Source of the DNA: Azospirillum thiophilum | Lineage (GTDB): Bacteria; Pseudomonadota; Alphaproteobacteria; Azospirillales; Azospirillaceae | Assembly (NCBI RefSeq): GCF_001305595.1 | Contig: NZ_CP012401.1 | Span: 2,243,001-2,307,000 of the forward strand | DNA length: 64,000 nucleotides | Direction: 5' to 3' | Shown: positions 1,199 to 14,921 of the stretch, piece after piece | Numbering within the stretch: the first letter of the stretch is position 1 | Layout: each line of letters opens with the position of its first letter | Notes under the pieces: model-generated | What the model was told of the DNA's origin: nothing | Database searches by the model: none | Seen by the model: the letters and a program-made list of their open reading frames with translations, nothing else | Translations under genes and position numbers: made by a program

Positions 1199-3712
1199 GT
1201 GGACGAGTCAACTTCCCTTTCCGACACCGCACGCCGCAGGATCACCGGCGGCGCTCCGCCCGGCGGGGCGATGCTGCTGCTCCAGTACGGGCTGGCGCCG
1301 GCCGGGCTGCTGCTGCTGGCCGCCGGCCTGTTGTTGGACCGCGATGCGGTCGGTTGGCTGGGCGCGGCTGCGGCGGCGGCCGGCACCGGCCTGCTGATCG
1401 GCCGCAGCGTCGCGGTGGTGCGGCGATCGGCGCGCGTCGGCGCGCTGCTGGGCGGTGCGCTCGAAGGGATGCCGGCCGGACAGCTGGTCTGCGACGGCGC
1501 CGACGAGGTGCTGTTCGTCAATGCCGCCTTCCGCGAGTTGGCGGGCTGGCGCCGCGGCGAACGGCCGCTGGAGGCGTTGGCGCGCCAGTTCTCCGGCGAT
1601 CCCGACAGCGCGCGCGAGTTCGGCCGCCTGCGCGACCGGGTGCGGGCGGGGGCGGCGGCGTCGGCCGAGCTGGCGATCCCGGCGCTGGACGGCCATCCGC
1701 CGGAATGGCGCAAGGTCCAGGGCCAGCCGGTCGCCGGCTTTCCCGGCTCCGTCCATTGGCGGGTCGAGGACATCACCGCCCGGCGCGAGCTGGAGCATGT
1801 CATGCTGCGCGAGCAGGCCAAGCTCGCCGATTTCATGGAGCATGCGCCGGTCGGCTTCTTTTCCGTCGACCAGAACGGCCAGTTCCTGTTCGTCAACGCC
1901 ACGCTGGCCCAATGGCTGGAGGCCTCGCCGGGCGACCTGACCGACGGTGAGCTGCGGCTGCACGGCGTCCTCGCCGCTCCCCCGGCCGCCGCCCCCTACG
2001 ACCTGTTCGACCATGGCGGCGGCGAGCAGCGCGGCGAGCTGACCATGGTCGGGCTGCATGGCCGCCGGTTCCAGGTGGCGGTCGCGCAGAGCGTGGTGCG
2101 GGCCGACGACGGCACCGTCCACACCCGGTCGGTGGTGCGCGACCTGTCGCCGGAACGCGAGTGGCAGGAGGCGCTGCGCCATTCCGAGCAGCGGTTCCAG
2201 CGCTTCTTCGAGGATGCGCCGATCGGCATCGCCCTGGTCGACGAAACCGGGCAGCTGACCGAATGCAACGAGGCCTTCCTGGCGCTGATCGGCAGCGAGG
2301 CGGGCAGCGTCATCGACCGGCCGATGCCCGACCTGATCGTCCCGGCGGAGCGCGAGGCGGTGACCGCCCGGCTGAAGGCGGTCCAGGGTGGCGCCGATCC
2401 GGCGACCCCGCTGGAGGTGCGGCTGTCCGGCGGGCGGGAGCTGACCGCCCAGCTCTATGCCCGGCGGCTGGTCGGCCCGGTCAAGCCGGACGGACGGCGC
2501 GACGGGGGCGGACTGATCCTTCACTTCATCGACATGACCGAGCGCAAGAGCCTGGAGGCCCAGTTCGCCCAGTCGCAGAAGATGCAGGCGGTCGGCCAGC
2601 TGGCCGGCGGCGTCGCGCACGACTTCAACAATCTGCTGACGGCAATGATCGGCTTCTGCGACCTGCTGCTGCTGCGGCACAAGCCGGGCGACCAGTCCTT
2701 CAGCGACATCATGCAGATCAAGCAGAACGCCAACCGCGCCGCCAATCTGGTGCGGCAGCTGCTGGCCTTCTCGCGCCAGCAGACGCTGCAGCCGCGCGTC
2801 ATCAACGTGACCGACGTGCTGGCCGAGCTGGCGAACCTGTTGCGCCGGCTGATCGGCGAGAACATCGAGCTGAAGATGATCCATGGCCGCGACCTGGGGC
2901 TGGTCAAGGTCGACCAGAACCAGCTGGAGCAGGTCATCATCAATCTGGTGGTCAACGCCCGCGACGCCATGGCCGGCGGCGGCAAGCTGACTGTCAACAC
3001 CACCAACCTCGTCCTGGACCAGCCCGAGCGGCGCGAGCATGAGACGATCCCGCCCGGCGGTTATGTCTCCATCGAGGTGATCGACACCGGCTGCGGCATC
3101 GCGCGCGAGAACCTGCAACGCATCTTCGAGCCCTTCTACACCACCAAGGAGGTCGGGTCGGGCACCGGTCTGGGGCTGTCGACGGTCTATGGCATCGTGC
3201 GGCAGACCGGCGGCTTCGTGCTGGTCGATTCCGCGGTGGGGGAGGGGACCACCTTCACCATCCTGCTGCCCCGCCACCAGGGCGAGCTGCGCCCGGTCGA
3301 CACGGCGGAGCCGCGCGAGCGGCGCGGCAGCGACCTGACCGGCACCGGCATCATCCTGCTGGTCGAGGACGAGGACGCGGTCCGCGTTTTCTCCGCCCGT
3401 GCGCTGCGCAACAAGGGCTATCAGGTGCTGGAGGCCAAGAACGGCGAGGCGGCCCTGCAGCAGATCGAGACCAACGGCGCCTCCATCGACCTGCTGATCA
3501 CCGACGTGGTGATGCCCCAGATGGACGGCCCGACGCTGGCCCGCCATGTCCGCCGGCTGCGGCCGGAGATGCGGGTCATCTTCATTTCCGGCTATGCCGA
3601 GGACCGGCTGGGCGAGATCGACGGCGTCGAGGTGGCCCATTTCCTGCCCAAGCCCTTCTCGCTGAAGCAACTGGCCTCCAAGGTGAAGGAGGTCATCCGC
3701 GACAGCCGGTGA
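1199..3712 (+). CDS. cckA: CckA, cell-cycle hybrid histidine kinase
   Basis: This membrane hybrid kinase/phosphatase feeds phosphate through ChpT to CtrA and CpdR in alphaproteobacteria, which would link it functionally to sciP in this window. An N-terminal pair of hydrophobic segments is followed by PAS-type sensor domains. Then come the H-box GGVAHDFNNLL (His codon 2618-2620), the N-box NLVVNARDAMA, the G-box GTGLGLSTVYG and a C-terminal receiver domain (ILLVEDEDAVR, phospho-acceptor Asp at 3503-3505 in TDVVMPQMDG). I chose the GTG at 1199 because GGAG lies five bases upstream. In-frame ATGs at 1109 and 1133 are possible and would add 22-30 residues. The frame runs open far back into flhB, which is a high-GC artefact. 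Confidence 0.93.
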   Translation: MDESTSLSDTARRRITGGAPPGGAMLLLQYGLAPAGLLLLAAGLLLDRDAVGWLGAAAAAAGTGLLIGRSVAVVRRSARVGALLGGALEGMPAGQLVCDGADEVLFVNAAFRELAGWRRGERPLEALARQFSGDPDSAREFGRLRDRVRAGAAASAELAIPALDGHPPEWRKVQGQPVAGFPGSVHWRVEDITARRELEHVMLREQAKLADFMEHAPVGFFSVDQNGQFLFVNATLAQWLEASPGDLTDGELRLHGVLAAPPAAAPYDLFDHGGGEQRGELTMVGLHGRRFQVAVAQSVVRADDGTVHTRSVVRDLSPEREWQEALRHSEQRFQRFFEDAPIGIALVDETGQLTECNEAFLALIGSEAGSVIDRPMPDLIVPAEREAVTARLKAVQGGADPATPLEVRLSGGRELTAQLYARRLVGPVKPDGRRDGGGLILHFIDMTERKSLEAQFAQSQKMQAVGQLAGGVAHDFNNLLTAMIGFCDLLLLRHKPGDQSFSDIMQIKQNANRAANLVRQLLAFSRQQTLQPRVINVTDVLAELANLLRRLIGENIELKMIHGRDLGLVKVDQNQLEQVIINLVVNARDAMAGGGKLTVNTTNLVLDQPERREHETIPPGGYVSIEVIDTGCGIARENLQRIFEPFYTTKEVGSGTGLGLSTVYGIVRQTGGFVLVDSAVGEGTTFTILLPRHQGELRPVDTAEPRERRGSDLTGTGIILLVEDEDAVRVFSARALRNKGYQVLEAKNGEAALQQIETNGASIDLLITDVVMPQMDGPTLARHVRRLRPEMRVIFISGYAEDRLGEIDGVEVAHFLPKPFSLKQLASKVKEVIRDSR

Positions 3713-3727
3713 GGGCGCGTTTTCCCC

Positions 3728-3847
3728 GCCCCCTCCCTAACCCTCCCCCACCTGCGGTGGGAGAGGGAACTGCCGCTGTCCTTTGTATGACCTCCGCAAG
3801 CGTCCAACCCCCTCTCCCGCAAAGCGGGGGAGGGATGGGGAGGGGGC
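3728..3847. repeat. Palindromic intergenic element, copy 1
   Basis: A 120-bp element begins 16 bp after the cckA stop. Its outer arms are near-perfect inverted repeats about 22 bp long: the left arm contains CCCCCTCCCTAACCCTCCC and the right arm is its complement with two changes. An inner hairpin on the left (CCCCCACCtgcGGTGGG) is followed by GAGAGGGAACTGCCGC and a second inner hairpin (CTCCCGCaaaGCGGGGG). The same layout recurs at 5203, 9617, 45631 and 56627, with a related form at 15357. This copy is the only one lying between two genes on the same strand. Confidence 0.85.
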
Positions 3848-5202: not shown

Positions 5203-5386
5203 CCTCCTCCCTAACCCTCCCCCTCTTCGAGGGAGAGGGAACCCTGCTGCCTGGGCATTTACGCTACGCTTACAAGCGTCCTACCCCCTCCACCGCCAAG
5301 CTCTCGCACAAACCTTCGGTTTGTGCTGACGCGACAGGCGGACCGAAGGTCCGCTGAGAGCGGGGGAAGGGATGGGGAGGGGGCAT
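5203..5386. repeat. Palindromic intergenic element, copy 2, with inserted three-way junction
   Basis: This is the largest copy of the family seen at 3728. The left arm carries CTCCTCCCTAACCCTCCCCC and the right arm GGGGAAGGGATGGGGAGGGG. The centre holds an extra fold not present in the other copies. An outer stem GCTCTC/GAGAGC (5300-5305 with 5356-5361) encloses two hairpins, GCACAAACC/GGTTTGTGC (5306-5326) and GCGGACC/GGTCCGC (5338-5354). The element lies between the convergent recA and the minus-strand gene at 5402. Confidence 0.8.
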
Positions 5387-5401
5387 TTGGCGGCCGGCTC
5401 C

Positions 5402-5983
5402 TCACACATCCACCACCATATGCGGCCTGAACGCGCCTTCCAGCGTCAGCAGCAGGTGCAGGTAGACCGCCACCTTGCGGGCGCGGTCGGTGTTGCGGGC
5501 GAGGCAGTCGCGCAGCTGTTCGGCCAGACGCGCGGTTTCCGGGTCCGGCTCCGACATTGCGGCGGCGGTGGCGGCCTGGACGATGTGTTCGGGGTCGACG
5601 GGGAGTGGCGCGGCCGGGTCCTTCAGCAGCGCCTCGGCCAGTGCCTCCTCGTCATGCTGCGGCGCCAGGGCGGCGCCCGGCGGGGAGGGCGGCACGCGGC
5701 GGGACAGGTGGCTGCGCAGATTGTCCTTCAGCCGGGCCCGCTGATGCTCGTCGAGCCCGTCGAACTGGTCGACCTCGTCGAACAGAAGATCATAGAGACG
5801 GCGGCGCTGCGGGTTGGGCGGATGCTGTTCCCGCCGCTCCTGCTCGCGGTCCCGCTGTTCCCGACGCGGGTTGCGCTGGTGGTTGCGGTCGGTGGCGCTG
5901 CCGGAGCGTTCGACCCCGGCGGTGGTGCGGACGCTGAATTCCGGCGGGCCGATGCCGCGGCCGGACGCGAGATTGCCGGACAT
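5402..5983 (-). CDS. Hypothetical protein, charged N-terminal half
   Basis: I do not recognise this 193-residue protein. It starts MSGNLASGRGIGPPEFSVRT. A strongly charged, Arg/Gln/Glu-rich stretch spans residues 30-60 (ATDRNHQRNPRREQRDREQE). A helical segment follows with LYDLLFDEVDQFDGLDEHQR, then a Pro/Ala linker, and a C-terminal helical region ending MVVDV. There is no signal peptide or membrane segment. It is the only gene between the recA terminator/repeat and the glucan synthase, whose stop is 88 bp away on the same strand. The good codon periodicity and low-complexity N-terminus suggest a lineage-specific cytoplasmic protein. Confidence 0.7.
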   Translation of the reverse strand: MSGNLASGRGIGPPEFSVRTTAGVERSGSATDRNHQRNPRREQRDREQERREQHPPNPQRRRLYDLLFDEVDQFDGLDEHQRARLKDNLRSHLSRRVPPSPPGAALAPQHDEEALAEALLKDPAAPLPVDPEHIVQAATAAAMSEPDPETARLAEQLRDCLARNTDRARKVAVYLHLLLTLEGAFRPHMVVDV

Positions 5984-6071
5984 GAGCCGCCTCCCCGGGA
6001 CCGTGTCTCCCAGTGCTCAACTCTGGCATAGCCGGCGCTTCCTTCCAAGCCGAAGCGCCGGCCTATGACCA

Positions 6072-8684
6072 TCAGTCGGCGGCCCCGGCACCGACGGCAC
6101 CGTCGGCCGGGGACGGCTTGCTCTTGCCGAAGCCGATGGTCGGGAAGACGTTGATCAGCGCGGTGATGAAGGCGGCCAGATAGGGCAGCGACTGCACCAC
6201 CAGCAGGCCCGACCACATGAAGGCGTCGCGGTTCTCGTGGCCGAAGACCATGACGATGGCCAGCGCCGCGCCCCACAGCGACACCAGCAGCACCAGCTCC
6301 TCGCGCGCCATCAGGAAGGCCTGCATCAGCGCCGGCTGGTTCTCGCATTTCGGCGTGCGGACGAAGGGCCGGCCGGAGGTGAAGATGCCCAGCCACATGG
6401 CGCGGCCGACCGTGTGGGTCAGCGCCATGCCGGCGACCGCCGCCCCGACCTTGTCCCAGAAGCCGCACTTCACCCGCGCCTCGTAGAGCCACAGCGACGC
6501 GCCGACCTTGAAGGCGAAGACGCTGAGCGTCGGGATCATGAAGACGTTGGGCGGGAACTCGAAATATTTGGGGAAGGCCATCAGGCCGATCGACCACAGG
6601 ATGCCGGCAATGCCGAAGATCATATGGGCGGCGTCGGCGAACCAGGGCAGCCAGCCGGTGATGAAATGGTACTTCTGGCCCGAGGTCAGTTCCTTGGCGC
6701 CCGGCGCCAGCTGGCGCCAATGATGCTTCAGGATCTGCACCGCGCCATAGGCCCAGCGGAAACGCTGCGTCTTGTAGGCGGAGAAGCTGTCGGGAACCAG
6801 CCCCTTGCCGTAGCTCTCCGGCATATAGACCGCCTCATAGCCATGCTCGAACAGGCGCAGGCCGAGATCGGCATCCTCGGTGATGCACCATTCGCCCCAG
6901 CGCCCGACCTTCTCCAGCGCCGACTTGCGGATGATGGTCATGGTGCCGTGCTGGATGATGGCGTTGCGCTCGTTGCGCTGGATCATGCCGATGTGGAAGA
7001 AGCCGGCATATTCCCAGTTGGTCATGCGCTGGAACAGGTCGTGTTCCCACTCGCGATAATCCTGCGGCGACTGGACGAAGCCGACCTCCGGCCGGTTGAA
7101 GTGCGGGATGGTCGCCTTCAGCCAGTCGGGATGGACCTGATAGTCGCTGTCGATCACCGCGATGTGCTCGGCGTCCGGCGCGGTCTGGGCCAGCCCGAAA
7201 TTCAGCGCGCCGGCCTTGAAGCCCGGCCAGTTGTCGAGGTGGAAGAAGCGGAACTTCGGTCCAAGCTTCTTGCAATACTCCTCGACCGGGCGCCAGACCG
7301 CCGGATCCTTGGTGTTGTTGTCGAGCAGCAGCACCTCGTAGTTCGGGTAGTCGAGGGCGGCCAGCGCGTCCAGCGTCTGCATGACCATGTGCGGCGGCTC
7401 GTTGTAGCAGGGCACATGGATCGACACCTTCGCCGCATTGGGCAGAGGTGCTGCGGAGCAGGGGATGAACTTGCGCTTGAACTTGTGCTGCCAGACGACC
7501 TCGGTCAGCTCCATGCCGTCGATCAGCATCACCGCGAACAGCACGAGCTGGCAGAAGATCAGCAGGCCCCAGGCGATCTCGGTGGTGACGGCGAGTCCGG
7601 CGGCCGATGCGGCGCTGACGGTGAAGACCAGGACGGAGGCGACCGCCTGGATCAGCGCGCCGTAGAAGATCTGGCCGCCGATCTTCAGGTCGCTGCGCCG
7701 CCACAGGAAGAACACCAGCGGCAGGAAGCCCAGCGCCACCGCGGTCGCGCACTTGACCTCCCAGTTGCGGATCTCGTTCACCCCGCCGATCATCGGGAAT
7801 TTCGGGTTGCGCTGATAGTCCCACAGGCCCCAGCTGGTGCCGGCGGTGCCCTCGATCTCCCGCTTCCAGGGCTGGTCGAAGGCCTCCATGATGAAGTAGT
7901 CGAGCTTGTTCTGGGCGGCGACGTTCAGGAAGTTGCGGATGAACTTGGCCTGGTTGACCTGGCTGGCCTCGGCGCCGCGGCGCCACGGGCCGTCGGCCGG
8001 CCAGCCGATCTCGCCGATCAGGATGTGCTTGTTCGGGAACTTCGCCTTCAGCTCGTTGTAGCGGAACATGGCGTAATCGACCGACTGGTCGACCGGAACG
8101 CCTTCCCAATAGGGCAGCAGGTGGACGGCGAGGAAGTCGACCGCGTCGGCCAGCTCCGGATTCTTCAGCCAGACGTGCCACGGCTCGGCGATGGAAACCG
8201 GCACGTTGACCTTCTTCTTCACCCGCTTGACGTAGTCGATGGCCTGCGCGACCGTCAGGTCGGCGCGCAGGATCGCCTCGTTCCCGACCAGCACGCGGCG
8301 GACGTTGCTGTTGGCGCGGGCCAGCTTGATCAGTCCGGCCAGTTCCGGCTCGTCGATCTCGGGCTTGCCGGCGGTCCAGGCGCCGGCGGTGACCGGCAGC
8401 CCGTGCTTGGCGGCGATGGCCGCGACCATCTCCGAGCCGTCGGTGGTGGAATAGGTGCGGACCGCCTTCACCGCGCCCTCCAGCGCGTCCATGTCCTTCT
8501 CGATGTCGTCGGCCGACGCCTTGTCGCCCTTGGACGGGCTCTTGTCGGAATGGAAGGGGGTGTAGGCGACGCCGGTGATGGCGCCGGCCCAGGACCGTTC
8601 GTCCACCGGGCGGTTCCACAGCGCCCAGAAGGCGATGTTGCCCAGGATCACCAGGATCAGAACCGCGAAGGCCGATTTACGCAT
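6072..8684 (-). CDS. Bifunctional GH17-GT2 membrane glucan synthase (NdvC-like)
   Basis: This 870-residue inner-membrane protein joins two enzymes. After one N-terminal membrane segment (FAVLILVILGNIAFWALW), residues about 35-310 form a periplasmic GH17-type domain with GVAYTPFHSD, AEPWHVW and the catalytic-Glu motif GEIGWP. Membrane segments follow, then a GT2 domain with VPCYNEPPHMV, the D-x-D-type DSDYQVHPDW, EDADLGLRLFEHG and QRFRW, then more membrane segments. This layout is known from rhizobial NdvC-type proteins linked to beta-1,3/1,6 glucan synthesis; the product here is inferred. The ATG at 8684 was preferred over the upstream GTG at 8708. An opgC operon near 52-55 kb could modify the same glucan. 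Confidence 0.85.
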   Translation of the reverse strand: MRKSAFAVLILVILGNIAFWALWNRPVDERSWAGAITGVAYTPFHSDKSPSKGDKASADDIEKDMDALEGAVKAVRTYSTTDGSEMVAAIAAKHGLPVTAGAWTAGKPEIDEPELAGLIKLARANSNVRRVLVGNEAILRADLTVAQAIDYVKRVKKKVNVPVSIAEPWHVWLKNPELADAVDFLAVHLLPYWEGVPVDQSVDYAMFRYNELKAKFPNKHILIGEIGWPADGPWRRGAEASQVNQAKFIRNFLNVAAQNKLDYFIMEAFDQPWKREIEGTAGTSWGLWDYQRNPKFPMIGGVNEIRNWEVKCATAVALGFLPLVFFLWRRSDLKIGGQIFYGALIQAVASVLVFTVSAASAAGLAVTTEIAWGLLIFCQLVLFAVMLIDGMELTEVVWQHKFKRKFIPCSAAPLPNAAKVSIHVPCYNEPPHMVMQTLDALAALDYPNYEVLLLDNNTKDPAVWRPVEEYCKKLGPKFRFFHLDNWPGFKAGALNFGLAQTAPDAEHIAVIDSDYQVHPDWLKATIPHFNRPEVGFVQSPQDYREWEHDLFQRMTNWEYAGFFHIGMIQRNERNAIIQHGTMTIIRKSALEKVGRWGEWCITEDADLGLRLFEHGYEAVYMPESYGKGLVPDSFSAYKTQRFRWAYGAVQILKHHWRQLAPGAKELTSGQKYHFITGWLPWFADAAHMIFGIAGILWSIGLMAFPKYFEFPPNVFMIPTLSVFAFKVGASLWLYEARVKCGFWDKVGAAVAGMALTHTVGRAMWLGIFTSGRPFVRTPKCENQPALMQAFLMAREELVLLVSLWGAALAIVMVFGHENRDAFMWSGLLVVQSLPYLAAFITALINVFPTIGFGKSKPSPADGAVGAGAAD

Positions 8685-8940: not shown

Positions 8941-9351
8941 ATGTTTTCCCTTAACGAACGGCTGCAAGCCGACACTTATCCTGTCATGGACCTGGATCTT
9001 TGCCGGGTGTTGCTGATGAACAACGCCCTGTGGCCCTGGTTGATCCTGGTGCCGATGCGCGATGGCGCGGTCGAGATCCACCGGCTGGACGAGGCAGACC
9101 AGATCACCCTGATGCGGGAGACCGCCCGCGCGTCCCGCGCGCTGGAGACGCTGTTCGCACCGGACAAGATGAATGTCGGGGCGCTGGGCAACATGGTGCC
9201 GCAACTGCACGTCCATGTGATCGGGCGGACGCGCGGCGACCCGGCATGGCCGGGGCCGGTCTGGGGCTCCGGCCATGCCGAGCCGTACGAGCCGGCCGCC
9301 GCCGCGGCGCTGGTGGAACGTTTGGCGGAGGCATTGCAGGCGGGCGCGTGA
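8941..9351 (+). CDS. HIT family (histidine triad) protein
   Basis: HIT proteins are nucleotide hydrolases or transferases acting through a conserved histidine triad. This 136-residue protein has the family core (LILVPMRDGAVEIHRLDEAD) and the C-terminal motif QLHVHVIGR. The usual third His of H-x-H-x-H is Ile here, as in FHIT-like short proteins of alphaproteobacteria with the following GDPAWPGPVWG. The ATG at 8941 has AGGAGAG just upstream. It is divergent from the glucan synthase with a 256-bp gap and is followed on the same strand by the small gene at 9408. The substrate is unknown. Confidence 0.9.
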   Translation: MFSLNERLQADTYPVMDLDLCRVLLMNNALWPWLILVPMRDGAVEIHRLDEADQITLMRETARASRALETLFAPDKMNVGALGNMVPQLHVHVIGRTRGDPAWPGPVWGSGHAEPYEPAAAAALVERLAEALQAGA

Positions 9352-9407
9352 ACTTTGCCGGTCCGCCGGTGTTTGAGTGGTCAACCATCATTTGGGAGAC
9401 TGCCGCC

Positions 9408-9605
9408 ATGACCGCTCAGGACCGCTCCAAATCCGTGACCTCCGATGCCCCGTCGGACGCCGCCCAGCAGATCGAGGACAAGCTGGTCGAGGAGACCGGC
9501 AAGGCGTCCGGCGATCCCGACAAGCCGGTCCAGAAGAAATGGGACGAGATGGGCGAGCGGGAGGACATCGCCGAGCAGAGCCGGCGGGAGGGCGGCGGGG
9601 TCTGA
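9408..9605 (+). CDS. Small acidic hypothetical protein
   Basis: This 65-residue, highly charged protein (MTAQDRSKSVTSDAPSDAAQ, then EDKLVEETGKASGDPDKPVQ) ends in a Glu/Arg/Gly-rich tail. It has no cysteine, signal or membrane segment and looks disordered. The ATG is preceded by GGGAGACTGCCGCC. It begins 57 bp after the HIT stop and may be cotranscribed with it. Palindromic element copy 3 starts right after its stop. Its composition resembles small stress-associated hydrophilic proteins, but no function can be assigned. Confidence 0.65.
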   Translation: MTAQDRSKSVTSDAPSDAAQQIEDKLVEETGKASGDPDKPVQKKWDEMGEREDIAEQSRREGGGV

Positions 9606-9616
9606 GGGCAGCCATT

Positions 9617-9766
9617 TGCCCCCTCCCTAACCCTCTCCCGCTCTCGGTCGGCCGAAGGCCGGTCCGATCGCGGGAGAGGGGACTGCCGCCGCTCCAGCCA
9701 ACTTCCCCTCTCCCGCGAAAGCGGGGGAGGGAGGGGCCCACGCGCCAGCGTGGGAGGGTGGGGGCC
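9617..9766. repeat. Palindromic intergenic element, copy 3
   Basis: This is a 150-bp copy of the family. The outer arms are TGCCCCCTCCC and GGGAGGGTGGGGGCC. The conserved middle GACTGCCGCCGC is followed by the hairpin CTCCCGCgaaaGCGGGGGAG and a third hairpin CCCACGcgccaGCGTGGG. A small extra hairpin (GGCCgaaGGCC) is inserted in the first loop. It fills the gap between the convergent genes at 9408-9605 and 9774-10727. Confidence 0.85.
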
Positions 9767-9773
9767 GACGACT

Positions 9774-10727
9774 CTACCGGTTCACCGTGCAGGTCAGCGC
9801 CAGCACGTCGGCCGCCTTGTCGAGGTCGTCGGCCTTCACCAGCACATAGTCGGTCTTGTAGGTCGAGATCGCGAAGATCGGCACATGGGCCTGGGCCAGA
9901 GGCACGGCGATGCGGGCCAGGATGCCGAACAGCGTGAAATCCACCGTGCCTTCGACCCGGAAGGCGCGCCAGCCGCGTTCGGCCTTCACGCCGTCGGGTA
10001 CGCGTTCCTCGCGGCACAGGATCGATAGCTCGTCGCCGGAGCGGGTGGCGCCGACCAGCGGGTCGGTCCAGTCGAGCCAGTCCGGCAGCCCATCGCCGGG
10101 CGGCAACTGCGCCACCGCCAGCCGGTCGGGCAGCACCGACAGGGCGAGGCCGGTCTGCTCGCGCACCAGTGCCGCGGTCAGCGTCGCCTCGTCCACCTCG
10201 AAGGGCTTCAGGATGCGCTTCGCGCGGGCGGCCAGAGACGGCACGCCGGACCGCATGGCGCGGCCCAGCATCTCCGCCGAGGTGGCGCGCAGCGCGGCGT
10301 CCGATTCGGCCAGATCGACCACCGCCTGCAGCGCGCTGGTCTGGACGATGCGGCTCGGGCTGTTCTCGAACCAGTCGGCCAGCAGGACGGCGGCGCGGCG
10401 GCGCTGCTCCTCGCTCATGCTCAGGCGCGGCACGATCTGGGCGATGTGCCAGCGCACCTCCACCTGTTCGATGGCGACGGCATCGGTCAGCAGATGGTCG
10501 ACATAGGCGTCGAGCCAGCCGGCATTGCCGCGCGACACCCGTTCCAGCGCGTCGGCGGCGCGCATGCGCACGCTGGCATCGCGGTCGAACAGGCAGCCGA
10601 CCAGTTCGGCCAGCTTGCCGCGGTCGGCCACGATCTCGGCGGCGACGGAGGGGGCGTCGCCCGCGCTCCGCCGGTCGCCGCGCGCCAGCCGCAGGGCCAG
10701 CGGGACGTTACGGATCCTGTCGTCCAT
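9774..10727 (-). CDS. HEAT-repeat / ACT-domain fusion protein
   Basis: This 317-residue protein has two parts. Residues about 1-175 are all-helical, with HEAT-like repeats ([51 protein letters not shown]). Residues about 190-317 match the CASTOR/ACT_7-type fold, including [20 protein letters not shown], an [15 protein letters not shown] strand pair, and a second half with [20 protein letters not shown] followed by [16 protein letters not shown] domains of this kind bind amino acids; the HEAT part suggests a partner protein. The stop of the upstream mfd lies one base away from this gene's start, so the two are probably cotranscribed. The ACT part is usually a stand-alone protein, so the fusion is unusual. 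Confidence 0.75.
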
Positions 10728-10728
10728 C

Positions 10729-13700
10729 TCACCGGCGTCCGGTCGGACGGCCGAAGCGCGTGTTGTTGCCCAGGCGCGACACCAGCTTGGCGCCGGTCGG
10801 CTTGGGCGGTGGCGGGGGAGGGGGCGGCGGCGGAGTCTCGCCGCGCGGCACGCCGCCGCCGGACGCCATCTCCGCCAGATCCTTCACCAGCTTCTGCACG
10901 CTGCGGACGCGGGCCTGCGGATCGGGCCATTCGCGGCTGTAGACCAGCTTGTGGTCGGGCCGCAGCTTCATCAGCGTCAGGTGCTGGGCGATGTAGGTCA
11001 GCAGCTTGGCCGGCTCGGCATAGACATTGTCGTGGAAGGCCAGCACCACGCCCTTCGGCCCGGCATCGACCCGGTCGAGGTTGGCCTGTTTGCACAGCCG
11101 CTTGATGGTGACGACGTCCAGCAGGTTCTCGACCTCCTCCGGCAGCTTGCCGAAGCGGTCGATCAGCTCGGCGGCGAAGCCGTCGACCTCCGCGCGGTCG
11201 ACCAGATCGGCGATGCGGCGGTAGAGCGACAGCCGCACCGTCAGGTCGGGCACATAGGCCTCGGGGATCAGCACCGGCGTGCCGAGATTGATCTGCGGCA
11301 CCCAGTCCTGCGCGGCGGCCGCGGCGACGGCGCCCTCCTGCATCGAGGCGCGGGCGTTGGCGACGGCGTCCTCCAGCATCTGCTGGTACAGCTCGACGCC
11401 GACCTCGCGCACCTGTCCCGACTGCTCCTCGCCCAGCAGATTGCCGGCGCCGCGGATGTCCATGTCGTGGCTGGCGAGCTGGAAGCCGGCGCCCAGGCTG
11501 TCCAGCGTCTCGATGACGTGCAGGCGCTGCTGGGCGGTGGCGCTCAGTGGCTTGTTCGGCGCATAGGTCAGATAGGCGTAGCCGCGCTTCTTCGACCGGC
11601 CGACGCGGCCGCGGATCTGGTAGAGCTGGGCCAGCCCGAACAGGTCGGCGCGGTGGACGATCAGCGTGTTGGCATTCGGGATGTCCAGGCCGCTCTCGAT
11701 GATGTTGGTGGCCAGCAGCACCTCGAACCTGCCCTCGTCGAAGGCGGTCATCACGTCTTCCAGCTCGCTGGCCGCCATCTGGCCGTGGGCGGTGACGATC
11801 TTGACCTCCGGCACCAGCTCGCGCACCCGCTCGGCGACCTTCGCCAGATCCTCCACCCGCGGGCAGACGTAGAAGGACTGGCCGCCGCGGTAATGCTCGC
11901 GCAGGATCGCCTCGCGGATCACCACCGGGTCGTAGGGCAGGACGAAGGTGCGCACCGCCAGACGGTCGACCGGCGGCGTCGCGATCAGCGACAGCTCGCG
12001 CACGCCGGAAAGCGCCATCTGCAGGGTGCGTGGGATCGGCGTGGCGGTCAGCGTCAGCACATGGATGTCGGCGCGCAACTCCTTCAGCCGTTCCTTCTGC
12101 TTGACGCCGAAATGCTGCTCCTCGTCGACGATGACCATGCCGAGCCGCTTGAAGTCCAGCCCCTTGGCCAGCAGGGCGTGGGTGCCGACGACGATGTCGG
12201 CGGTGCCCTCCGCCAGCTCCTTCTTGACCAGGGTCTGCTCGCGGGCGGTGACCATGCGCGACAGCTGGACGACGCGCACCGGCAGGCCGCTGAAGCGGGT
12301 CGAGAAGGTCTTGAAATGCTGGCGGGCCAGCAGGGTGGTGGGCACGACGACGGCGACCTGCTTGCCGCTCATCGCCACCATGAAGGCGGCGCGCAGCGCC
12401 ACCTCGGTCTTGCCGAAGCCGACGTCGCCGCAGACCAGACGGTCCATCGGCCGGCCGCTGCCGAGGTCGGTGAAGATGTCCTCGATCGCCTTCAGCTGGT
12501 CGTCGGTCTCGGGGTAGGGGAAGCGGGCGGCGAACTCCTGGTAGACGCCCTCCGGCGTCAGCACCGGATCGGCCTTCTTCAGCATGCGCTCGGCGGCGAT
12601 CCGCAGCAGGGCTTCCGCCATGTCCTTCAGCCGCTTCTTGACCCGCGCCTTGCGGCCCTGCCAGCCGGCGCCGCCCAGTTTGTCGAGCTGGACGTTGGCA
12701 TCCTCCGAGCCGTAGCGCGACAGCACCTCGATGTTCTCGACCGGGACATAGAGCTTGTCGCCGCCCTCATAGACCAGGCGCAGGCAGTCGTGCGGGGCGC
12801 CGGTGACCTCCAGCGTCTCCAGCCCGTCATAGCGGCCGATGCCGTGGTCCATATGGACGACGATGTCGCCCTCGTGCAGCGCCGAATGCTCGGCGATGAA
12901 GTTGGCGGCCTTGCGCTTCTTCTTGTGCGGCCGGACCAGACGGTCGCCCAGGACGTCCTGCTCGGTGATGACCGCGAGGTCGGGCGAGGTGAAGCCGTGC
13001 TCCATCCCCAGCACGATGGTGCCGATGATGCCGCGGTCGAAGCGGCGGACCTCCTCCATGCTCTCCGCCGGCTCCAGGCCGGGGATGCCGTGGTCGGCCA
13101 GCACGTTGGACAGGCGGTCGCGCGACCCGGCGGAATATCCGGCGATCAGCACCCGCCGGCCGTCGGCGCGCTGGGCCCGGATATGGTCCTTCACCGCGTC
13201 GAAGACGTTGATGTCGGGGCGGTTGCGCTCCTCGGCGAAATCGTGGCCACGCTTGCCGCCGGCATCGACCGTGCCCTTGATGCCGGGGGGCGTCGAGAAC
13301 ACCTGCAACTGCGCCACCGCGCGTTCGCCCATCAGCGCGTCCCAGCCGACGGCGTCGATGAACATCGAGGCGACCGGCACCGGCTTGTAGACCGGCGATC
13401 CCGCCCGCTTCTCGATCGACATCATCGACAGGCGCGAGGCATGGAAATCGACCACCTGCGCCATGCGGGCGTCGCGCGCCTCCGCCGCCTGATGGTCCAG
13501 GCTGACGATGCCGCGCGGCAGGTAGTCCAGCACCGTGTCCATGCTCTCGTGGAACAGCGGCAGCCAATGCTCCATCCCGCCATAGGACCGGCCGGCGGAG
13601 ATCGCCTCGTAGAGCGGGTCGTCGTCGGTCACCGCGCCGAACAGCTCGCGGTAGCCGGAACGGAAGCGGGCGATCCCCGCCTCGTCCAGGAACACCTCCG

Positions 13701-14370
13701 ACATCGGCTTGAGCTCGACCCGCTCGCGCTTGTCGGTGGTGCGCTGGGTCATCGGATCGAAGGCGCGCACCCCCTCCAGTTCGTCGCCGAACAGGTCGAG
13801 GCGCAGCGGCTCGTCGGTGCCGGGCGGGAACAGGTCGACGATGCCGCCGCGCACGGCGAACTCGCCCGGCTCGCGCACCGTCTGGGCGCGTGTGTAGCCG
13901 TTGCCGGCGAGGTAGCGCTGCAGCTTCTCCAGGTCGATGCGGTCGCGCAGTTTGGCCGTGAACAGCGCGTCCTTGAAGGCGCTGCGCGGCGGCACCTTCT
14001 GCACCACCGCGTTCACGGTGGTCAGCACGATCAGCGGGGCCAGCCCGTCGCGGTTCGCCGCGGCGTCGCGCCGGGCGATCAGCCGGGTCAGCGTGTCGAT
14101 GCGCCCGGCGACGATGCCGCCGTTCGGCGATACCCGGTCATAGGGCAGGCAGTCCCAGGCCGGGAAGGTCATCACCTCCAGCTTCGGCGCGAAGAAGGCC
14201 AGCGCTTCGGCCAGCAGGGCGGCGCGGGTGTCGTCCAGCGCCACATGCAGCAGGCCATAGCCCCCGGCCTTCTGCGCAAGCTCCGCCAGGATGCGGGCAT
14301 CGTGACCCTCGGGCGCGCCGCCGATCAGGAGACGGCCGGCGCGGCCGGGCTGGAGATCGAAACTGACCAA
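10729..14370 (-). CDS. mfd: Mfd, transcription-repair coupling factor
   Basis: Mfd is the ATP-dependent translocase that removes stalled RNA polymerase and recruits UvrA. At 1213 residues it is slightly longer than usual. The N-terminal UvrB-like module is followed by the RNA-polymerase-interacting segment ([18 protein letters not shown]), helicase motif [17 protein letters not shown], motif II DEEQHFG, motif [17 protein letters not shown], and motif [21 protein letters not shown]. The C-terminal D7 domain ends in a lineage-specific tail with ten consecutive prolines and an Arg-rich end. It sits downstream of sdhE on the same strand, a common alphaproteobacterial arrangement. Confidence 0.98.
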
Positions 14371-14424: not shown

Positions 14425-14748
14425 TCAGGAGCCCTGACGTGGTGTGTATTGGAACGCCGTCAACAGGCGCATCACATCGCCGTCATGCTCGGCCGGCACC
14501 GGCTCGCGGCCCGACATCCAGTCATAGAGGTCGGGATCGCCCAGTTCCAGCAGCGCCTCGAAGCGGTCGAGCATGTCATGGTCGAAGGTCACGACATGGG
14601 CGTCGGCGAAGCTGCCCATCAGCAGATCCATCTCGCGCGTGCCGCGGTGCCAGGAGCGGAAGCGCAGCCGCTTGCGCCGGTTCTCGAGCGATTCGGCAGT
14701 CTCGGGAGCTGCCGTCTCGGGAGCTGGTGGGGTGCCGTTTTCGGTCAT
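14425..14748 (-). CDS. sdhE: SdhE, succinate dehydrogenase flavinylation factor
   Basis: SdhE (FAD assembly factor 2) promotes covalent FAD attachment to succinate dehydrogenase. The protein has 107 residues. The conserved core [20 protein letters not shown] contains the RGxxE-type signature, followed by GSFADAHVV and [18 protein letters not shown]. The first 25 residues are a Pro/Ala-rich extension. It lies 54 bp upstream of mfd on the same strand and is divergent from the guanidine riboswitch and exporter. Confidence 0.93.
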
Positions 14749-14921
14749 TGCAGTCCAACGTCGAAAGCCCCCGACGGCGCCAGAGGCGAAGGGAGGGCGA
14801 AGGAGGGAACCATTCAGGAACCCCATCCTGCACGGGCCGGGCCGGCGATGCAACATTGGCCGCCCGCCTTGACCGCCCGCCTTGACCATGGGTGTAGGAT
14901 GTCCTATCTGCCCTGTGGCCC

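Follow-up and report, generated by a model that had tools for sequence, protein, structure and literature searches.

The window, a 64,000-nucleotide stretch of the Azospirillum thiophilum genome, carries on its minus strand a single open reading frame (9774–10727; 317 codons, ATG start) whose 317-amino acid product combines a predicted HEAT-type helical repeat half with a double-ACT half. Directly upstream on the same strand lies mfd (10729–14370), encoding the transcription-repair coupling factor and recognized by the Pfam domains TRCF, CarD_TRCF_RID, DEAD, Helicase_C, and UvrB_inter. Only one base separates the end of mfd at 10729 from the ATG of the fusion gene, as originally predicted for this locus. 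The next gene upstream is sdhE (sdh5; 14425–14760, minus strand, start approximate; Pfam PF03937, E 2.4e-25). SdhE (Sdh5) is the flavinator of succinate dehydrogenase. Judged by strand and spacing, sdhE, mfd, and the fusion gene presumably form an operon and would be co-transcribed.

Beyond the stop codon of the fusion gene, a 65-amino acid open reading frame is located on the plus strand (9408–9605). It has no Pfam match; among 30 named Azospirillum loci, 10 contain a match to it. The stretch between this frame and the fusion gene (9620–9770) is rich in G+C and contains, as judged by eye, inverted CCTCTCCCGC/GCGGGAGAGG-type motifs. A scan of positions 9350–11000 for sigma-70 promoters and terminators detected none, and about none is expected from such a scan.

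Domain architecture and predicted fold

The ACT half was recognized by two Pfam families, A9CJY8-like_N at residues 203–245 (E 5.8e-9, 35.7 bits, cut-off 27) and ACT_7 at residues 249–309 (E 2.1e-20, 72.7 bits, cut-off 27). Residues 195–316 (9780–10145, minus strand) are predicted to form a double-ACT unit of the CASTOR/Atu0741 family, and both Pfam and the full-length structure model place one such unit in each chain. Structures of bacterial CASTOR-type ACT proteins have been available since 2005. The best structural match is 1zhv (Atu0741), with a VIA Z-score of 16.7 and an rmsd of 2.1 over 124 aligned residues (34% identity) and a Foldseek E-value of 1.1e-10. CASTOR1 and VC0802 (1zvp) rank after it in Foldseek; the latter was aligned by VIA over 119 residues at 13% identity (Z 12.8). 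By sequence, the ACT half matches CASTOR1/2 with an E-value of about 2e-10. Atu0741 shares the double-ACT unit and VC0802 the ACT_7-type fold with the fusion protein, but both are stand-alone proteins of about 130 amino acids without a HEAT half. Their PDB entries are named hypothetical protein (1zhv) and protein of unknown function (1zvp).

For the other half, the Pfam scores fall below the cut-offs, which mark the detection limit of these models rather than define HEAT-repeat proteins: HEAT_2 reaches 18.8 bits with the whole protein and 21.1 bits with the half alone (E 3.8e-4; cut-off 27.7), HEAT 19.8 bits with the half alone (cut-off 23.5). NCBIfam assigned no family to the fusion protein at its own cut-off. 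Because the Pfam HEAT models score below their cut-offs, the assignment leans on the structure model. Modelled alone with AF2, the half yielded nine helices in stacked antiparallel pairs, i.e., a solenoid, at a pLDDT of 89.2 and a pTM of 0.83. Residues 8–173 (10209–10706, minus strand) are accordingly annotated as a predicted HEAT-type helical solenoid. The full-length model, built from 27 Azospirillum sequences (pLDDT 82.7, pTM 0.54), shows helices up to residue 173, a linker of low confidence at residues 176–186 (10170–10202, minus strand), and then the ACT unit. With a pTM of 0.54 and a weak linker, this model does not fix the mutual orientation or packing of the two halves. The original prediction had described a HEAT scaffold joined to a CASTOR-type ACT domain in one frame; the 317-residue open reading frame, the Pfam ACT domains, and the predicted HEAT fold bear this out, and fold prediction supports either half.

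The best 50 VIA matches listed for the HEAT half are all HEAT/ARM structures with Z-scores of 12.5–14.7. The first among the matches listed is 5n3u_B (CpcF; Z 14.7, 159 aligned residues, 2.9 Å, 14% identity), and adaptins, importins, designed armadillos, and E. coli YibA follow at nearly equal rank. Foldseek detected no match for the HEAT half alone at an E-value of 0.001 or better. The matches point to a solenoid and not to a function, near-equal ranks being expected of helical repeats, which reach such Z-scores without kinship. The CpcE/CpcF phycocyanin lyase (5n3u) resembles the HEAT half in its HEAT-type solenoid and its size, but it is a cyanobacterial pigment lyase and lacks an ACT half. 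With a bilin lyase subunit heading the VIA matches listed, the HEAT half could be taken for an enzyme-like solenoid, or one that binds a pigment, instead of a scaffold for proteins. Such a role is very improbable, given that importins, adaptins, and designed armadillos lie within about 1–2 Z units of CpcF, that scores of this height arise without kinship, and that Foldseek returned no match at the threshold above.

Conservation in Azospirillum and linkage to mfd

The order was sampled by one family of 82 genomes, 45 from Azospirillum and 37 from other genera. Of the 45 Azospirillum genomes, 43 contain a single open frame, free of internal stops, that matches both halves; identity goes down to 57%, and none of the 43 orthologues is split. 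Neither half was matched at an E-value of 0.001 in the two remaining Azospirillum genomes, G009 and G028, both of which keep mfd. The mean column identity is 72% for the HEAT half and 68% for the ACT half. Both halves are under purifying selection: dN/dS (Nei–Gojobori) was 0.05–0.42 for the HEAT half and 0.05–0.29 for the ACT half in all 13 pairs chosen for the comparison, several of which are close. Residues 176–193, between the halves, carried no replacement in nine of these 13 pairs. A frameshift, a split gene, or a sequencing error as the origin of the fusion is ruled out by the 43 intact frames among 45 genomes and the dN/dS values of both halves. It is also hardly credible that the frame arose by chance, through read-through or a frameshift between two neighboring genes, and has no function as a fusion. 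Outside the genus, the halves were found as separate genes only, which would fit such an event, but a single frame kept in 43 of 43 genomes down to 57% identity and selection on both halves argue against it.

The linkage to mfd assumed in the original prediction extends beyond the window: the fusion gene follows mfd on the same strand in 41 of the 43 genomes. G064 and G017 are the exceptions: each carries the two genes on separate contigs, and the upstream end of the fusion gene lies 234 and 71 bases, respectively, from the edge of a contig. The aligned ends of mfd and the fusion gene range from an overlap of 8 bases to a distance of 107 bases across the genomes. The single base found in the window is thus not matched by a gap as narrow in many other genomes, and tight coupling is not general. 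Of 30 named loci, 28 show the order sdhE–mfd–fusion; in the remaining two, the contig ends 234 and 74 bases upstream of the fusion gene. On the far side of the fusion gene, a small open reading frame, a HIT gene, a glycosyltransferase gene, and recA were matched in 10, 9, 9, and 5 of the 30 loci, respectively, within flanks of at most 6 kb that are shorter in some loci and may miss recA. According to these counts, the sdhE–mfd–fusion order is kept and the far side is not.

All 82 genomes of the family contain mfd, and 39 of them are devoid of the fusion. In a tree of 21 Mfd proteins, including those of 11 of the 43 fusion genomes, G009 fell among the fusion-bearing species, together with G022 (support 96/94), and G028 branched outside them. 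Two histories would account for this: a single gain with one loss, or a gain at the base of the genus with two losses. A second Mfd-like match at an E-value of 1e-150 or better was observed in 32 of the 45 Azospirillum genomes, the window's own included (38–48% identity over the matched part; e.g., G000:C3:199641-201590).

The two halves outside Azospirillum

Among the 37 family genomes of other genera, none encodes the fusion and 15 contain an ACT-only gene (16 matches). In all 15, this gene and mfd are on separate contigs or more than 1.5 Mb apart, several of the assemblies being fragmented. The 48 loci inspected outside the genus comprised 12 with a HEAT frame, 35 with an ACT frame, one with neither (L152), and none with both in one frame; since L103 and L132 represent the same gene, the 12 HEAT-only loci correspond to 11 genes. 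One genome of the class sample (G156) encodes a HEAT-only and an ACT-only protein on different contigs. The long open frames around six ACT-only genes (L070, L131, L137, L141, L144, and L145) gave no HEAT match, and their upstream part looks non-coding by eye.

In the class sample (385 genomes, up to five candidates scored per genome), the fusion profile matched 17 genomes and spanned both halves only in two from Azospirillum. Within the phylum sample of 398 genomes, the HEAT profile matched three and the ACT profile 21, the source genome included in each case. The phylum of the metagenome-assembled genome (MAG) harboring L103 was represented by 201 genomes, of which 19 were matched, each by one half only. 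A scan of genome contigs recovered 31 loci: 30 fusions, 29 of them from Azospirillum and one from "Roseomonas genomospecies 6", and one HEAT-only gene from a MAG. Its patterns came from the HEAT half only, and fusions in which this half has diverged would have escaped it. None of 21 plasmid records covered 80% of the fusion. As far as the sampled genomes go, the fusion is a new combination of two known families that is confined to Azospirillum. In line with the original prediction that no HEAT–ACT fusion had been described, a literature search at listing level found no paper on one. The fusion presumably arose once; the tree of ACT halves, short and poorly resolved and with the long rows L068 and L072 unsafely placed, neither proves nor excludes one origin.

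The solitary bacterial HEAT proteins (about 166–213 amino acids) match most of the HEAT-half profile of the fusion, with E-values from 1.9e-41 to 1.6e-11 for L062:2673-3251, L103:5944-6585, and L128:5983-6507, but they lack the ACT half and have other genomic neighbors. No characterization of these relatives was found. L062:2673-3251 passes the HEAT_2 cut-off (28.7 bits). On the minus strand, it overlaps the end of a gene for a 3-methyladenine DNA glycosylase (3199–3780, minus strand; Pfam Adenine_glyco, E 1.1e-80). HEAT-only genes of one genus are located behind a ribonucleotide reductase gene (assigned by Pfam at two of three loci), L067 behind a fatty-acid desaturase gene and a further relative behind a GyrI-like gene (both Pfam), L140 and L155 behind a tpiA-like gene (by eye), and still others behind different genes. 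ACT-only genes are similarly scattered. L054 follows an NTF2-like gene (Pfam), and L068:4968-5348 overlaps, on the minus strand, the end of a dihydroorotate dehydrogenase gene (5345–6403, minus strand; Pfam DHO_dh, E 4.4e-83), which hints at a pyrimidine link at that locus. From these varied neighbors, each half appears as a small cassette placed behind various genes, the site in Azospirillum being mfd.

With the window's Mfd as query, no mfd match was obtained at the 15 ACT-only and five HEAT-only loci searched outside the genus (8–12.5 kb each; 5.2 kb for L060 and 6 kb for L063). An ancestral arrangement with a HEAT or ACT gene already beside mfd was also considered and rejected: behind mfd in 12 family genomes of other genera and in G009 and G028, neither inspection by eye nor the profiles detected such a gene. 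Within about 2 kb behind mfd and on its strand, five of these 12 genomes of other genera encode a small protein starting with MSETYV, MSDTYV, or MSESYA (L036, L037, L038, L040, and L042; L038 without a Pfam match).

These distributions bear on whether the protein works with Mfd. As an Mfd accessory protein, it would sense amino-acid or stress state and tune transcription-coupled repair. Its place beside mfd speaks for this, being kept in 41 genomes out of 43 (with the genes on different contigs in the remaining two) even though the far-side genes differ, and so do the glycosylase and ribonucleotide reductase neighbors of some HEAT-only relatives. However, 39 of the 82 family genomes have mfd and no fusion, G009 and G028 among them, the ACT-only genes lie far from mfd or on other contigs, and other HEAT-only relatives follow the desaturase, GyrI-like, and tpiA-like genes. 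The mfd neighborhood therefore belongs to the genus and not to the domains, and an accessory role is unlikely. Less probable still, and in our view improbable, is a genus-specific adaptor that acts through Mfd: its HEAT half would dock to Mfd or RNA polymerase, its ACT half would read a ligand, and transcription-coupled repair or stalled RNA polymerase would thereby be coupled to the amino-acid state. Shared expression alone fits the data as well as a possible role with Mfd does. The tie to transcription-coupled repair put forward in the original prediction thus found no backing in the mfd-bearing genomes without the fusion, two Azospirillum genomes among them, or in the loci outside the genus, where no mfd was found. 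Were the link functional, nutrients would feed into transcription-coupled repair; this would be a surprise and, on present evidence, is unlikely.

Putative ligand pocket and proposed function

Human CASTOR1 is the cytosolic arginine sensor of mTORC1. CASTOR1 and CASTOR2 belong to the same ACT family as the fusion protein by sequence and fold, but they consist of two tandem ACT units without a HEAT half, whereas the fusion protein has one unit and a HEAT half. In CASTOR1, Asp304 and Ser111 contact arginine; binding is lost with the exchange D304A and weakened with S111A (PMC5187391). The same source describes GATOR2, the partner of CASTOR1, as absent from prokaryotes. In the sequence alignment, the two residues correspond to Asp293 (codon at 9849–9851, minus strand) and Pro283 of the fusion protein, respectively; the former is the position of the contact to the arginine guanidinium group.

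Residues were counted in 37 of the 43 fusion proteins (without those of G062, G063, G065, G066, G068, and G069; L024 was dropped as the same gene as L051). Position 293 is Asp in 33, His in three, and Glu in one, and all 35 ACT-only frames have Asp there as well. Position 283, equivalent to Ser111, is Pro in 32, Ser in four, and Ala in one. A conserved pocket in the ACT half is likely from these alignments, although the three His and one Glu at position 293 show that it is not constant. Because Asp293 is shared by all ACT-only frames, it is not diagnostic of a CASTOR1-like arginine sensor, and because the Ser111 position is mostly Pro, arginine itself is not indicated as the ligand. Arginine sensing in the manner of CASTOR1 was discarded on the latter ground. 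Amino-acid binding by the ACT half is plausible by family.

Our preferred reading, held tentatively as a serious candidate rather than a probable one, is that of a cytosolic two-domain adaptor in which a dimerizing ACT module with a small amino-acid-like ligand controls a partner held by the HEAT half. Two stand-alone gene families would have been joined in Azospirillum. The double-ACT unit, a single-unit bacterial form of CASTOR, most likely dimerizes, and a pair of such units would reproduce the arrangement of four ACT domains found within the single chain of CASTOR1. A small amino-acid-like ligand would bind at or near the ACT dimer interface, and its presence or absence would alter how the HEAT solenoid presents itself to the partner, so that dimerization, ligand binding, partner binding, and switching would all reside in one protein. 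Standing behind sdhE and mfd in one putative operon, the protein would be made along with SdhE and Mfd, not necessarily to work jointly with them.

The ACT half might instead serve as a dimerization or structural module without a ligand, leaving the protein a constitutive HEAT scaffold. The replacement of Asp293 in four of 37 proteins and the prevalence of Pro at the Ser111 position are compatible with this, as is a HEAT half about as conserved as the ACT half. On the other hand, an Asp retained by 33 of the 37 fusion proteins and by every ACT-only frame seems more than dimerization by itself would call for, and a purely structural ACT half appears rather unlikely. The natural occurrence of a bacterial CASTOR-type ACT unit fused to a binding scaffold suggests that one or more proteins of this type act by holding a partner. 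The fusion offers a concrete handle on the role of the small bacterial ACT proteins and could bear on the origin of the mTORC1 arginine sensors.

The pocket differs in the clade of G029, G031, and G036 (L046, L047, and L045, respectively). Here, the motif STYxTD is changed to STAASH, which replaces the aromatic residue by Ala and Asp293 by His, and 5–11 extra residues precede Gly260. In this clade, the ligand pocket may have been lost or changed.
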